DNA of 21,520 nucleotides from positions 1 through 21,520 of the IMG/VR virus record IMGVR_UViG_3300023176_002047; one strand, written 5' to 3'. The notes beneath the pieces are model-generated. The model was given only the letters and a program-made list of their open reading frames with translations, was not told the origin of the DNA and did no database searches. Positions 14,015-21,520 of this stretch are shown piece after piece; position 1 is the first letter of the stretch; each line of letters starts with the position of its first letter. Source of the DNA: a virus. The translations under genes were made by a program, and so were the position numbers.

Positions 14015-17000
14015 ATGGCAGATCCAAAGAATAGATATATAACTTTTCTGGATAAGGAGGCCTTAAAAGCTGGCGAAGAAAAACTCATACGAATTAATGA
14101 GGCCGACTATAATAATGAGTATGGCACATTTGAGGAGTACGCTAAAGCCCAAAATGCCACTATATATAATACTGATGGCGTTGAATGGGATCCAACCTAC
14201 GACACGAAACCTGAAGCTGTACAACAATTAGATGAAGTTGTTGTAGAAGCGCCTAAAGGAAAATTTGCTACTGAAAAAGAACAACAAGCAAAAAACATTC
14301 AAGATAATTTATCCAAGATAACTCCTGAGACTACAAAAGATTTAATTGCTAAAGAATATTTTAATTTAGATGATAATTTTAATCCTAAAATAGATAGAAA
14401 ATGGAAACCAAAAGTTGTAAACGGTGTTCCAACACAAGCAAGAGAGTACGTAAATGATTACGAAACTGATTTAAAAAATAATTTTAATGATGATAAAAAA
14501 TATAATTTATGGAAATCTATAGTTAATAAAGCACAAAAAGAGGGGGTTAAATTAAATAAAGAAAATATAGGGGGTTATTTTAGCTTAGATGATATTGATG
14601 AAAAATCAAAGCAAACAGCTGTTTTAAAAGAAAAAAATTATCAATCTGATCAATATCTAAGAGGACTTGATGAAAATGAAAGAAAATTTATTGAACCTTA
14701 TTTATTTGAAGGAGAGCTTGAAACAAAAGCAATTAAAGAGCTTCAAAGAGCTACAAAATTACAAAAAGAAAAAGATGAATTTTATGGCAATGAAGAGCAA
14801 TGGAATCAAGAATTAAAAAAGAGAGGATTAACACCTAAAGATTTAAATCCTGATTATTCTTCAATAAAAAACGAATTTAATCAAGAGTTAAAAAAGAAAA
14901 CTAAAGAATATGATGATTTTGTAAAAGGCGTTGACACTAAAGCCGCAAACTGGCAATCATTTGTTAATGGAAAAACAGAATTAGAAAAAAGAATAGAAGG
15001 GTTTAATACATCGGTAAAAAATAATGTTTTTGAAAATGAACAGGAACAAATAGCAGTAAGAAATCAATTAGTAGAAGATATAGAAAAATTTGATAGTATA
15101 TATACAGAAGATGTTATAAATGCACAATGGGAAGATTTAAATTCAAGTATTGCGGAAGCAAAAAATAAATACGACGAATTAAACGATGCTCTAATACAAT
15201 CAACTGATATTGATTTTGCCTTAAGCTCTTTATCTAAAAACTATGATAAGATGGACAAGCTGGCTCTTGTTATGGAAGAATCTTTTTTAGGTAGTGCAGC
15301 TATGTTAACTTCTACTGTTGCAGCAGATTTAGGTAACTTAGCTATGTTTATGAACATATCACCAACTAAATCTAGAAAATGGTATCAAGATTTATTAGAT
15401 AATAAAACAGCTGCTATAAATTATAATCAAAAATTAAGAAAGAAAAAAGAAACACAATTTCCACAAGATGCAAGATATGGCGATGAAGGGTATTGGGGTG
15501 ATGTTTTAATTAATAATAGCCCATCTATATTAGTAGCATTAGGTACTGGTTTTGCTGGTGTTGGTGGTGCGTCTGCTTTAGCAACAGCTGCCAATGTTTC
15601 AACAGGTGTATTCTTTACAATGGAGGCTGGACAACAATTATCTAATTTAGAAATTGGTCAAAGAGAAGCCCCAAAAGTAATTGCTGATTTAGAAGAAGCA
15701 CTAAAAGATGAAACAAACCTTGCAAAAAGAAATGAATTATTAAAAGAAATTGATAACCAAAAAAGTTTATTAAAATATTCTCAATTTCAAAAAGCCTTTA
15801 ATGCTTATACTTATGGAGGTATAGCTTCTTTAGCTGAAAGATTTGGTACCTTAAGTGTTATAAAAAACTTTCAAAAATTATCAAAAGGTGTTGGTCTTAC
15901 AAAATTAGAAAAAGTTTTACCACCATCTATTGCTAGAGCCACATCACAAGGGTTAGGTATTGCATCAGCAGGAACAACAGGAATTGGCGTAGAAACTGTA
16001 GAAGAAACAGTAACTAAAATAGGACAAAATTTTGCAGATATTGTAGTTTTAGGAAAAGAAAAAACTTTAATTGACGGTTTAGACCCTGAGTTTTTTAGAA
16101 ATGTTGCGGCAACATCTTTAGCTATATATGGACCAATGGCCACACCTAATGTATATACCGCTGTTAGTAATGAATTAAAATTAAGAAGTGAAGCAAAGCA
16201 AGAGGCTATAATAAGAGACCAATTAATGCTTCTACAAGAAAAAATAAATAAAACAGATCTTAGGTCAAAAGAAGGTAGACAATTATTAGGGCAAAGAAAT
16301 AGCTTATTAAAAGAATTAGAAAAAATAAACACTAATATTATTTTAAAAGCTGGTAAAATGTCCAATGATGAAATTGAAGCAGTTTTTGAAAACGGTAAAA
16401 GAATAAGAGAGCTTAGAAGAGAAGCTGAGCAAATTGGAAATCAAGTTGAGTTAACTGAATATGATAAGCAAAGATTTGGAATTATAAAAGGTAAAGCTCA
16501 AAAATTATTTGATATAAATCAAAAAATATTAGGTAAGCCTACTGAAAAATTTAAAGATTTAGATGTAGCATTACAAATGTCTAGATTTTTTGGTTCAACA
16601 AATTTAGTTAAAAATTTAAAAGGTATTAATCTATTTGAAATAAACAAAGATAATTATCAAGAATTTATTTCTCAAAAGAAAAATGAATATCCTCAAGAAG
16701 TTTTAGATAGAATTGAAAAAAATGCATTAGCAATACAGAATAAAGAGTCTGGGGCTAATGCAATGAATGAAAATAATGACGTAATAGTATTTACAGACAA
16801 TGTTCCTGTAAATATCCAGGCCGCTTACGCTTTAGGCTTAGACATGATGGCAGACGTATTTTCGGTTAGCCCAATACACGAAGTAGGTCACATACAAACT
16901 AGAAAAGCTGGTATAATAAAAGATGGTAAATTATCGGAAGAAGCTAAAAATTTAGCAGATGAAATTTCATCAGACATTGAACAAAGATTTAGAAATGGGG

Positions 17001-20000
17001 AAATAACAAAAGAAAATTATCAAAATTTTCTTTCAAGAATGCAACAGTATAGCAAAGCATCAGAAACTATTTTTGCAGATGAAATGTTGCAATTAATTGC
17101 TGAAATGCAATTATTAGGTATTTTACCAAAAAATAAATTTAATTTTTATAGTGCAAAACAATTTGTTAATTCTTTATTAACTAAATTTAATGGTGATCAA
17201 TCTTATTTATTTAGAATTGAATCACCCCAAGATGCTTATGATTTTATTAGTAGCTGGCAAGAAGGAGTTTTTACAGCACAAACAGCTGGAGCACCAGAAG
17301 AAGATAAGAGCACTGAAATAAAAGAAAGTAAAGGTGTTTCAAAAGCAGAATTTGAAAATACAGTTAAAAAATTAAATAATTTAAAAGACGGAAATAATAC
17401 TGTAGATTTAAGAACTAAGCCAGAAGTATTTGAGGCATTACCTACAATGATAGAGGTTCAGATCAATAACTTAGCTGCTACATTCGATAATAACACAAAA
17501 GAAGAATTAATATCTGACGTTCAGCTTAGGGTATTAGATCAAAATAAACAAGGTAATAATCCTGATTTAACATTTAAAGGCATAGGCCAAGTTTATGGAT
17601 TTTTAAATGATAGAATAAGAAAAAGATTATTAGATGCTTTAAAAGCAGATAGAGAATCAATATCTCCTAAATACTTAAATAGATTAGAAGGCGATGCAAT
17701 TGAAAAACTAGAAAAGCGAACTACTGAAGATAGCCCAGCACCTAAGCAACAAGAAAAACCAACATATAAAACTATTTCAAAAAGTAATATATTTTCAACA
17801 TCAGCACTTGATCAAATTAAAAATAAATTAGTATCTACGGTTAGAGTATTAAAATCAAAAATAAATGCACCAACCACAATAAATCAAACTGTTAAACCTA
17901 TTATATCAGAAATAAAAACTGAAATGGGTAAACAAGCTGATATTATAATTAAAAAAGACGCTGGTGGATTACAAAATAAAAGATTAGAAAAAGTATTTTT
18001 AAAATCTAAAAAAGCCACATTAGAAAATGCACCTACAACTTGGCTTGCTAAAGCGATGCCTTTTGCTGTTCAAAAATCTGTAGGCGGAAAATATACAGGA
18101 GAATTTGTTATTGATCCTACAACAAATAAAAAAGTAGAAGTTTTTAAACCAAATTTTATAAATGATTGGCAAGGTAAAAAAATAGATAGAGTAAAAACTT
18201 TAGGCACAGGTCAAACATCAGGTAATCAATTTATAAAAAGAAAACCAAATGTAGCTCAAAAAGTAACTGACGAGCAATTTATGTCGTACATGTTTAAATT
18301 TGACAATGATGGTAATGCTACGGAGATTATAAGAGGCAGAAAAGAATCATGGTCAAAAATGATGGCGGAAGAAATATCATTTGAATTAATAGACGATGCG
18401 TTGAATGATTTAACCAGCCCTATTGCAGAAGAACTTATAAAAAATCAAGCAAGATTAGGTGTTGAAATTGTAGAAAATTTTGCTCAACAAGTAAGAAAAG
18501 ATATTGATAGAGGTACAGTAAAAGAAAGTAAAGGCTTAGCCAGTTTTACGCCAAGCGAAATGGATAGATATACTAGCTCACAAGGCTGGGCTGATTTTAA
18601 AAATAAAATGGCGGCTGCTGAAGGAAAATATAGAGAAAACACTATATATAGATTTCATAAAGAATCTTTTTTAGAAACATACCCAGATAAGTTACAAAAA
18701 GAAATTGCAAAACAATTTTTTGTTAAATTAAAAAATTATGGTGATGTTGAGTCTATTAAAGTTCAATTAAAAGAAGATAACAGTTCATTGCCGGAATATT
18801 TAGAAGATATTAGAAGCCAAATAGATTTTAATGAAACAGTTAGACAAATTACAAATGCAGAAGCATCTATTCCAGTATTAAATGATAATAAAGTATATGT
18901 AGCTGATACACAACAGTATGTTATAGACCAAGCAAAAGGAGAAGATGTACAAACAATTATAGCATTCTTTTCCCCTACATTTGCTAATTCTGGCAAAATT
19001 GGAAGAGAAAGACAAGGCGTGATTGGTAAAGTAAGTAGAGCTGATTTATTTTATAATCAAAAGCATGTTATAAGTTCACTTAATGAAGCTGGTTTTAATA
19101 TTGATAAAGTAACTAAAACAAAAATAATATTAAAGGATGGTACTGTTTTACCTAGAGAATTTACAGCTACTGCTAAGGTAGAACAAAAGCATTTAGACGG
19201 AACATTAGATATAAATAAAGAAATTGAAATAGCTGGTAAGGCTTGGGATTTTATGATGAAATTAATAAAAGGTTTGAAAAATCAACCTTCCCATGTCCAA
19301 GCATTAACTTTAGCCTCTATGAATTCTGGTACAAATACTGTTTTAAGAGTTGCGGCTCCAGTACTTAATGTTAGTACTGTTTTACCTTCCAAAATACCAT
19401 CAGATTACAGATATGAACATAGACCACCAGCAAGGGTTGTTATGGCATTAGCTTTTAAAAGTGAAGTATTAGGCGATAAAAATATAAATATTGAAGCTTT
19501 GAAAAATGATTACCAAGTTTCTATTATACCAGTAACAATGGATAAAGTAATAGGAAAAATTGGATTAGGTCAAAGCACAATACCTGATTACAAACCTGGT
19601 ATTACGCCTGCAACTAATGATTATTATAATGCTTTTACAAAAAATAAACCCGGTATAGTTTCTATAAAAAATCTTAAAACAGGTGAAATAATTGGTAAAG
19701 ATTATGAAGCTTCATCTAAATTAAAAAATCAACCTACAGTAAAAGATGCTGTTGCTCAGCCTAAACAACCTAAAGAATCAACTGTAAAAGAAAGTAAAGG
19801 GTTAGATTTAAGTAAAGAAATTAATAATATGATTGCTAGGCAAAAAGGTGTAAAAGCAGAAGCAACATATTCTGAAATAGTAGCAAGAAAAAAAGGAGCA
19901 GGTAAAGGTGCTTTAAAATTTTTCTTACCAGCTACAGCTGAAGATTTTAGAGGCTTAACATCATATACATTTGCAGGAAAAGGAAAACAAGGAGAAGCAG

Positions 20001-21520
20001 ATCAAAAGTTTTTTGAAGATAATTTAGTAAAACCTTATATAAAAGGTGTTGCTGCAATGGAAAGTGCAAGACAAGCTTTAAAAAATGATTATAGAGGATT
20101 ATTACAAATGTATCCTGAGGTTAAAAAATCTTTAAATAAAGAAATAGGTAAGACTGGATTTACATTAGACCAAGCTATAAGAGCATATTTATATGAAAAA
20201 TCTGGTAATGAAGTTCCTGGTATATCTAAAAGAGATTTAAAGTTATTAACAGACACAATTAATAATAACGAAAATTATAAAGGATTCGCTGATGGTTTAT
20301 TAGCTGCAAGTAAGAAAGACTCTTGGGTTAAACCAGACCCATATTGGGATGCGGGTAGTATATTGAAAGATTTGAATGACATGGACCAAAATGTAAATAG
20401 AGCTGAATATTTACAAGAATTTATTGAAAATGTTGATATAATATTTGATAAACAAAATTTAAATAAGATTGAAGCATTATATGGTTCTAGACATAGAGAA
20501 GCATTAGAGGATATAATTAGAAGAATGAAGTCTGGTAGTAATAGACCACCAGGCACAGGGGATAGACAAACAACAGCTTGGTTGAACTGGGTAAACAACT
20601 CTGTAGGTACAATAATGTTCTTTAACAGAAGATCAGCATTATTACAGATGATTTCATTTGCTAACTTTACAAACTGGTCAGATAATAACCCATTAATGGC
20701 TGCAAAAGCATTTGCTAATCAACCAGCATATTGGAAAGCTTGGGTTGAAATATTTAATTCAGATAAATTAAAACAAAGAAGAGGTGGTTTAAAGTCTGAT
20801 GTACAAGAACAAGAAATTGCTAATCAAGCTAAAAATTCACCTAACAAAGTTCAAGCAGCTATATCTTATTTATTAAAAATAGGTTTTACACCAACACAAA
20901 TAGCAGATAGTGTTGCTATTGCAACTGGTGGTGCTACATTTTTAATTAATAGAACAAATACATACCAAAAGCAAGGAATGAGCTATGAAGACGCGAGAGC
21001 AAAAGCTTTTGAAGATTTTAGTGCTATATCTGATGAAACACAGCAATCAGGTGATCCAATGCTTATTTCAAAACAACAGGCTGGTCATTTAGGTAGATTC
21101 ATATTATCATTTCAAAATACACCAATGCAGTATACCAGGTTAATGAAAAAAGCTGGACAAGATTTAATAAATGGTAGAGGTGATTGGAAAACAAATGTAA
21201 GTAAAATATTATATTATGGATTTATACAAAACTTAATATTTGCTGGATTACAAAATGCTTTATTTGCATTATTACCAGAGTTTGATCCTGAAGAAGAAGA
21301 AGAAGCATACGATAAGCAAAAAAATAATAAATATAATAGAATTATAAATAGTATGATTGATACTATTTTAAGAGGTAGTGGTTTAGCAGGAGCCGTAGTG
21401 GCAACATTAAAAAATGCTATAAGAAGATACAATTTTGAAGAAGCAAAAGGTTTTACAGGAGATCATGCATATACCTTATTAGAATTAGCTAACGTTTCAC
21501 CACCTATTGGTTCAAAGCTT
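14015..21520 (+). CDS. Giant polyvalent virion/ejection protein with HEXXH metallopeptidase motif (3' end outside window)
   Basis: The frame from ATG 14015 stays open to the window edge, at least 2,502 residues. I read it as a large polyvalent virion protein that travels with the genome. Residues 1-75 are encoded by clearly less A+T-rich DNA and end at LDEVVVEAP (72-80), which resembles the TonB box of SusC-type receptors. Residues 100-420 are helical and charged. Hydrophobic segments lie near 422-455, 503-535 and 695-715. HEVGH at 955-959, with ADE (Glu1023) and AEM (Glu1030) downstream, looks like a gluzincin-type zinc peptidase. KESKG occurs at 1103, 1503 and 1925. Residues 1503-1920 hold a domain with YEHRPPARVVMAL. 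From 1930 onward the sequence (KFFLPATAEDFRGLTSY, WLNWVNNSVGTIMFFNRRSA, FILSFQNTPMQYTRLMKKAG) matches what I remember of marine phage structural giants. No virion RNA polymerase or lysozyme motif is seen. Confidence 0.8.
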   Translation, partial: MADPKNRYITFLDKEALKAGEEKLIRINEADYNNEYGTFEEYAKAQNATIYNTDGVEWDPTYDTKPEAVQQLDEVVVEAPKGKFATEKEQQAKNIQDNLSKITPETTKDLIAKEYFNLDDNFNPKIDRKWKPKVVNGVPTQAREYVNDYETDLKNNFNDDKKYNLWKSIVNKAQKEGVKLNKENIGGYFSLDDIDEKSKQTAVLKEKNYQSDQYLRGLDENERKFIEPYLFEGELETKAIKELQRATKLQKEKDEFYGNEEQWNQELKKRGLTPKDLNPDYSSIKNEFNQELKKKTKEYDDFVKGVDTKAANWQSFVNGKTELEKRIEGFNTSVKNNVFENEQEQIAVRNQLVEDIEKFDSIYTEDVINAQWEDLNSSIAEAKNKYDELNDALIQSTDIDFALSSLSKNYDKMDKLALVMEESFLGSAAMLTSTVAADLGNLAMFMNISPTKSRKWYQDLLDNKTAAINYNQKLRKKKETQFPQDARYGDEGYWGDVLINNSPSILVALGTGFAGVGGASALATAANVSTGVFFTMEAGQQLSNLEIGQREAPKVIADLEEALKDETNLAKRNELLKEIDNQKSLLKYSQFQKAFNAYTYGGIASLAERFGTLSVIKNFQKLSKGVGLTKLEKVLPPSIARATSQGLGIASAGTTGIGVETVEETVTKIGQNFADIVVLGKEKTLIDGLDPEFFRNVAATSLAIYGPMATPNVYTAVSNELKLRSEAKQEAIIRDQLMLLQEKINKTDLRSKEGRQLLGQRNSLLKELEKINTNIILKAGKMSNDEIEAVFENGKRIRELRREAEQIGNQVELTEYDKQRFGIIKGKAQKLFDINQKILGKPTEKFKDLDVALQMSRFFGSTNLVKNLKGINLFEINKDNYQEFISQKKNEYPQEVLDRIEKNALAIQNKESGANAMNENNDVIVFTDNVPVNIQAAYALGLDMMADVFSVSPIHEVGHIQTRKAGIIKDGKLSEEAKNLADEISSDIEQRFRNGEITKENYQNFLSRMQQYSKASETIFADEMLQLIAEMQLLGILPKNKFNFYSAKQFVNSLLTKFNGDQSYLFRIESPQDAYDFISSWQEGVFTAQTAGAPEEDKSTEIKESKGVSKAEFENTVKKLNNLKDGNNTVDLRTKPEVFEALPTMIEVQINNLAATFDNNTKEELISDVQLRVLDQNKQGNNPDLTFKGIGQVYGFLNDRIRKRLLDALKADRESISPKYLNRLEGDAIEKLEKRTTEDSPAPKQQEKPTYKTISKSNIFSTSALDQIKNKLVSTVRVLKSKINAPTTINQTVKPIISEIKTEMGKQADIIIKKDAGGLQNKRLEKVFLKSKKATLENAPTTWLAKAMPFAVQKSVGGKYTGEFVIDPTTNKKVEVFKPNFINDWQGKKIDRVKTLGTGQTSGNQFIKRKPNVAQKVTDEQFMSYMFKFDNDGNATEIIRGRKESWSKMMAEEISFELIDDALNDLTSPIAEELIKNQARLGVEIVENFAQQVRKDIDRGTVKESKGLASFTPSEMDRYTSSQGWADFKNKMAAAEGKYRENTIYRFHKESFLETYPDKLQKEIAKQFFVKLKNYGDVESIKVQLKEDNSSLPEYLEDIRSQIDFNETVRQITNAEASIPVLNDNKVYVADTQQYVIDQAKGEDVQTIIAFFSPTFANSGKIGRERQGVIGKVSRADLFYNQKHVISSLNEAGFNIDKVTKTKIILKDGTVLPREFTATAKVEQKHLDGTLDINKEIEIAGKAWDFMMKLIKGLKNQPSHVQALTLASMNSGTNTVLRVAAPVLNVSTVLPSKIPSDYRYEHRPPARVVMALAFKSEVLGDKNINIEALKNDYQVSIIPVTMDKVIGKIGLGQSTIPDYKPGITPATNDYYNAFTKNKPGIVSIKNLKTGEIIGKDYEASSKLKNQPTVKDAVAQPKQPKESTVKESKGLDLSKEINNMIARQKGVKAEATYSEIVARKKGAGKGALKFFLPATAEDFRGLTSYTFAGKGKQGEADQKFFEDNLVKPYIKGVAAMESARQALKNDYRGLLQMYPEVKKSLNKEIGKTGFTLDQAIRAYLYEKSGNEVPGISKRDLKLLTDTINNNENYKGFADGLLAASKKDSWVKPDPYWDAGSILKDLNDMDQNVNRAEYLQEFIENVDIIFDKQNLNKIEALYGSRHREALEDIIRRMKSGSNRPPGTGDRQTTAWLNWVNNSVGTIMFFNRRSALLQMISFANFTNWSDNNPLMAAKAFANQPAYWKAWVEIFNSDKLKQRRGGLKSDVQEQEIANQAKNSPNKVQAAISYLLKIGFTPTQIADSVAIATGGATFLINRTNTYQKQGMSYEDARAKAFEDFSAISDETQQSGDPMLISKQQAGHLGRFILSFQNTPMQYTRLMKKAGQDLINGRGDWKTNVSKILYYGFIQNLIFAGLQNALFALLPEFDPEEEEEAYDKQKNNKYNRIINSMIDTILRGSGLAGAVVATLKNAIRRYNFEEAKGFTGDHAYTLLELANVSPPIGSKL
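16790..17110 (+). other. Zinc metallopeptidase-like domain within the giant protein
   Basis: The motif SPIHEVGHIQTRKAG places HEVGH at residues 955-959 (bases 16877-16891), a standard HEXXH zinc-binding and catalytic signature with the usual hydrophobic residue before the first His. About 64 and 71 residues later, FADEMLQLIAEM supplies Glu1023 and Glu1030 as candidates for the third zinc ligand. Domain limits are estimated. Similar HEXXH domains occur within other phage and conjugative-element polyvalent proteins; the substrate here is unknown. Confidence 0.65.
17319..17334 (+). repeat. KESKG-encoding 16-base repeat, copy 1
   Basis: TAAAAGAAAGTAAAGG encodes KESKG (residues 1103-1107), preceded by a Pro/Glu/Asp/Ser linker and located shortly after the metallopeptidase-like domain. 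The same 16 bases recur at 18519 and 19785 in the same reading frame. Confidence 0.85.
18519..18534 (+). repeat. KESKG-encoding 16-base repeat, copy 2
   Basis: This is exactly the same 16 bases as copy 1, encoding KESKG at residues 1503-1507, exactly 1,200 bases downstream. With flanks it reads TVKESKGL, identical in peptide to copy 3 and differing at only two nearby bases. Confidence 0.85.
19785..19800 (+). repeat. KESKG-encoding 16-base repeat, copy 3
   Basis: This third exact copy encodes KESKG at residues 1925-1929, 1,266 bases after copy 2. It follows a Pro/Lys/Gln linker (VAQPKQPKEST) and directly precedes the long C-terminal domain, as expected of a domain-boundary element. Confidence 0.85.

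Follow-up and report, generated by a model that had tools for sequence, protein, structure and literature searches.

Embedded zincin domains have been predicted to process the polyvalent proteins of phages, and the same work cites DdrB of phage P1 as being processed (Iyer et al. 2017, PMC5512222). The virion RNA polymerase of N4 has such a zincin domain but is packaged unprocessed, which counts against cleavage, and the paper, as searched, names no recurrent cut-site or junction motif (PMC5512222). In the giant phage SPN3US the prohead protease gp245 cuts ejected head proteins at A-X-E (PMC10052503), and for the cargo proteins of crAss001 no proteolytic processing is described in PMC10172136. 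We found no description of cut sites for such zincins or of a lineage-matched junction motif in the literature searched, which takes in few subscription journals.

The stretch of DNA analysed here (the window) is a fragment, 21.5 kb long, of an uncultured crAss-like podovirus. Its portal, capsid, ring-type and muzzle proteins resemble those of crAss-like phages of Flavobacteria. Downstream of the muzzle gene and two cargo-like genes it encodes a giant protein whose counterpart in the relative L004 is complete at 2628 residues. Cultured relatives show the same order, with the counterpart gene placed after those for the muzzle and the cargo-like proteins; its annotation in phi38:1, elemo and Gundel is that of a structural protein. 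Judged by gene position, the giant protein of the window is probably a packaged virion cargo protein. Scans against Pfam and PHROG assigned it to no meaningful family, and profile matches to RPM2 and FliL were treated as chance. A tblastn search with three family members against cultured phages returned no match, hence no sequence relative of the giant protein, and the giant proteins of four cultured crAss-like phages (Panino, phi38:1, elemo and Gundel) show no comparable repeated motif. The positional counterpart in Maribacter phage Panino (L005:26703-32192, 1829 residues, annotated as a tRNA methyltransferase) has neither an HExxH nor a repeated junction motif. The features of the window that matter for what follows are these:

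14015..21520, + strand: giant modular (polyvalent-type) putative virion cargo protein, a single ORF of 2502 residues, open at its 3′ side where the window ends
16877..16891, + strand: HEVGH, residues 955-959, the active-site motif of a zincin metallopeptidase, invariant across 27 diverged members
17081..17083, + strand: Glu 1023, which is predicted to be the third zinc ligand; in the 27-sequence alignment the one invariant column besides those of the HExxH
17276..17332, + strand: low-confidence linker, residues 1088-1106, including most of copy 1 (AlphaFold2 pLDDT below 50, model residues 229-247)
17321..17335, + strand: junction motif copy 1, (I)KESKG, starting at residue 1103, on the border between the zincin region and the next module
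17336..18520, + strand: module between copies 1 and 2, defined by alignment, its first part weakly resembling sigma-70 region 2
18521..18535, + strand: junction motif copy 2, (V)KESKG, starting at residue 1503, where the homology of relatives ends (residues 1505-1518), in a low-confidence linker (residues 1496-1505)
18536..19786, + strand: exchangeable module between copies 2 and 3, alignable in some relatives and replaced or extended in others
19787..19801, + strand: junction motif copy 3, (V)KESKG, starting at residue 1925, where homology restarts (residues 1908-1930), in a low-confidence stretch
19805..21520, + strand: conserved C-terminal module, family-wide, with 45-82% identity among ten diverged members, used as the query for collecting the family

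A sequence-only reading of the window had pointed to a peptide, KESKG, repeated in this protein with identical nucleotides. The sequence TAAAAGAAAGTAAAGG indeed occurs exactly at 17319, 18519 and 19785, each time on the + strand and in frame of the ORF 14015-21520, and KESKG is found exactly three times in the 2502 residues. The segment lengths given earlier, 1102, 400, 422 and at least 578 residues, are right, and TVKESKGL is common to copies 2 and 3. The same reading held three chance copies to be unlikely, and we agree: the expectation for KESKG in a protein of this kind is 0.007 occurrences, and a 5-mer of any kind was present three or more times in only 10 of 2000 composition shuffles. 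A KLSKG at residue 621 was treated as chance, L004 having KYSKP at this place. The proposed linker-like setting agrees with AlphaFold2 models of modest overall quality, in which copies 1 and 2 fall within short linkers of very low confidence and a long stretch of low confidence surrounds copy 3. Near-regular spacing, also noted at the time, proved incidental, as the same two junctions are about 400, 650 or 830 residues apart in other members. The earlier account did not mention that an HExxH zincin domain precedes copy 1 by about 150 residues. A helical segment following copy 1 (17387-17614) shows a weak likeness to Sigma70_r2, with an E value of 0.022 in 2 of 27 members.

The KESKG motif is thus real, but it is the spelling of one lineage only. 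A profile search with the C-terminal module gave at least 566 confirmed related loci, and 105 loci, some of them on shared contigs, were gathered by searching once with the muzzle and once with the C-terminal end; 69 non-redundant giant proteins were studied. Across the family the junctions carry a wider motif with the consensus (V/I)-K-(F/R/Y/K)-S-(K/I/L)-(S/G/A). Junction 2 was anchored on the preceding module and junction 3 on the following one, and despite this separate anchoring their consensus sequences are nearly the same. The spelling matches within a protein and differs between lineages. In the nearest relatives, L004 and L013, copies 2 and 3 read KESKG and copy 1 reads ESKD. L012 has KKSIS twice, L016 KSSIA twice, L099 KRSAI and KRSAA, L097 KRSVS and KRSVT, L105 IKFSKGL twice, and L108 VKFSKG and IKFSKS; at the position homologous to copy 1, relatives have KSSIS, KKSIS, KKSVS and the like. 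Some distant members have no clear motif at junction 3. Within the window and L004, ESKG is confined to the giant protein, and on the L013/L091 contig a motif of the KESKG type is convincing only in that protein.

Could K- and S-rich linkers produce such a pattern by chance or through their composition? An unanchored scan for K-x-S pairs over whole proteins speaks for this, being weak in most single proteins, significant in the window and marginal in L105 only. Tests anchored on the junctions give a very different result. With automatic site choice, junctions 2 and 3 of the same protein are far more alike than mismatched pairs (permutation p=1e-5, for 16 proteins as well as for 10 distinct lineages), in line with p=2e-5 for an earlier hand-picked set. 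A motif-agnostic test, in which the best match to the junction-3 linker within its own protein is ranked against all proteins, placed the own-protein match in the top 5% for 19 of 66 (p=3e-10). When a profile was trained on junction 2 alone, junction 3 was among its top five matches in 40 of 68 proteins, about 2 being expected; this profile matched 1.6 times per protein against 0.26 in shuffles, and its only strong matches in the window were the three KESKG copies. We consider a chance or compositional origin scarcely credible and take the existence of a functional peptide-level signal at the junctions as almost certain.

That the three copies have identical nucleotides is true in the window, and it was one reason to consider them as seams for DNA recombination, at which short stretches of identity would let modules be exchanged. 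Module exchange does happen near the copies. The identity at the DNA level is nevertheless nothing special: among 11 lineages, residues shared between junctions use the same codon in 35 of 57 cases, against 28 expected from the codon usage of the gene, and several exact peptide repeats in other members are encoded by different codons. Recent DNA copying is therefore excluded as a general cause. Copies within one protein agree in peptide and those of different lineages do not, while the codons used differ; we conclude that selection acts on the peptide and not on DNA seams. The mosaic structure of the window also argues against seams at the copies, as identity between the window and L004 switches at about 17670 (residue ~1219), from ~45% before to ~97% after the sequence PKQQEKPTYKT, more than 100 residues after copy 1, the nearest one. 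On the codon comparison we have rejected the seam explanation, to which we give very little credence.

At the level of the protein, the copies do mark borders of modules, as had been suggested. BLAST alignments of the window protein to many relatives end at copy 2 (residues 1505-1518) and restart around copy 3, and 21 of 44 internal alignment ends lie within 25 residues of a copy (P=0.002). Inserted modules, too, have the motif on both sides. In L108 a zeta-toxin-like P-loop kinase (Pfam AAA_33, E 3e-13; residues ~1769-1916 of the giant protein) sits between VKFSL and IKFSKS. HAD-like domains, judged by sequence motifs, lie between FKLSKGL and IKFSKGL in L105 and between RKRSY and VKRSV in L097. 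These observations bear on what we regard as the main alternative to cutting, namely that the motif is a docking or packaging tag repeated on each module and coevolving with a virion or host partner. Coevolution with any partner would yield the same matching within proteins, and a tag would suit a protein that is probably packaged cargo. An uncut single chain, however, should need no tag per module; the copies are placed in module borders and flank inserted modules on either side, and the same protein always has a peptidase of its own. A docking role seems to us rather unlikely. Among the three functions that had been put forward, the tag, the seam and proteolytic maturation, the last fits best, and the persistence of the peptide through changes of codon speaks against the seam. 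The motif probably represents a proteolytic site, cleavage here being deduced from sequence comparison. T4-like cleavage at (L/I)xE, which would split IKE|S, was dropped as a candidate since the E position is occupied by F, R, K, S or Y in relatives.

Which enzyme might cut at such sites? When 27 diverged proteins are aligned over junction 1 and the region that precedes it, no columns are invariant except the two His and the Glu of HExxH and a single Glu further downstream. Of the 69 representatives, 68 have exactly one HExxH ahead of the C-terminal module, with 0.006 expected. Single family members give weak matches to Pfam M78, M90 and SprT; a fold search of the PDB with a model of the zincin region, which is modelled poorly, returned no match. 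The similarity of the motif between proteins correlates with that of the zincin (r 0.36, p 0.01; 15 of 18 proteins alignable). This correlation persists when the C-terminal or the middle module is controlled for (r 0.31-0.36, p 0.010-0.016), and the middle module adds nothing once the zincin is controlled; the correlation is modest, and shared ancestry could partly explain it. In L012 (IMGVR_UViG_3300021964_000361), the muzzle is 97% and the C-terminal module ~80% identical to the window; its zincin is of a different subtype (HELLH) and its junctions read KKSLS, KKSIS and KKSIS, a natural joint swap of zincin and motif.

Cleavage might instead be due to another protease, either a separate phage enzyme or one of the host. 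The L013/L091 contig, the closest long relative, encodes a separate 134-residue protein with HEKLH (L115:886-1290) next to genes of the tail-fibre type, and lineage-specific spelling requires only some coevolving or host-specific enzyme. Against this, the HEKLH protein matches no Pfam family, an S78 prohead protease was found in none of seven related contigs of 56-67 kb (possibly incomplete), every full-length member has its own zincin with conserved active-site residues, and motif similarity tracks zincin similarity. We consider an enzyme of this kind improbable. That the sites are cut by the embedded zincin is a serious possibility, to which we would give slightly less than an even chance.

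We therefore favour proteolytic processing and propose the following model. The giant protein would be a multi-module packaged polyprotein of the polyvalent type, with the repeated peptide as a processing site at each border. A sequence-specific peptidase, for which the zincin inside the same protein is the best candidate, would recognize the version of (V/I)-K-x-S-x-x used by the lineage and cut there. The peptidase could act in cis or in trans, either while the head matures or once the protein has been injected, and would free the modules. As all sites would have to suit one enzyme, they would change together within a lineage, and a newly acquired module would have to carry or gain a matching site. 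Taken as a whole, this processing-site polyprotein is the best explanation we can offer, with about equal chances of being right or wrong. A more general formulation is more tentative: proteins of this type might be self-processing cassettes for injected proteins, combining a resident metallopeptidase with a lineage-specific cut code at each module border. If so, a new effector module could be added wherever it is flanked by the cut code, and the code, coevolving with the peptidase, would predict the cut sites. For dozens of lineages the motif predicts cut sites to the residue, it shows where modules meet in proteins that are almost unannotated, and its many natural pairings with a matched peptidase lend themselves to a direct test of specificity. 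Confirmation of the model would show how these phages can swap effector domains in a packaged polyprotein while retaining its processing.

The proposed maturation resembles that of SPN3US (PMC10052503) in that a phage protease would cut at a short degenerate motif, cutting being predicted in our case. It differs in that SPN3US uses one separate protease for many head proteins, from which mainly propeptides are removed, while no S78 protease was found in the seven contigs related to the window. Unlike in SPN3US and T4-type systems, the motif is not spread over several head proteins: convincing copies of the KESKG type in the L013/L091 contig, and ESKG in the window and L004, are confined to the giant protein. 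As with the cargo proteins gp45-gp50 of crAss001 (PMC10172136), the giant protein is a putative crAss-like virion cargo encoded near the muzzle. The closest likeness is to the polyvalent proteins, as represented by P1 DdrB and the N4 virion RNA polymerase in PMC5512222: both groups are very large and multidomain with variable domain content, and share one HExxH domain with a downstream Glu and predicted packaging and processing. In contrast to polyvalent proteins, no known LPD or polyvalent-associated Pfam domain was detected, whether in the protein of the window, in three further members or in the C-terminal module. Processing of polyvalent proteins by zincins was already proposed in 2017; what our comparison would add is the lineage-matched junction motif.
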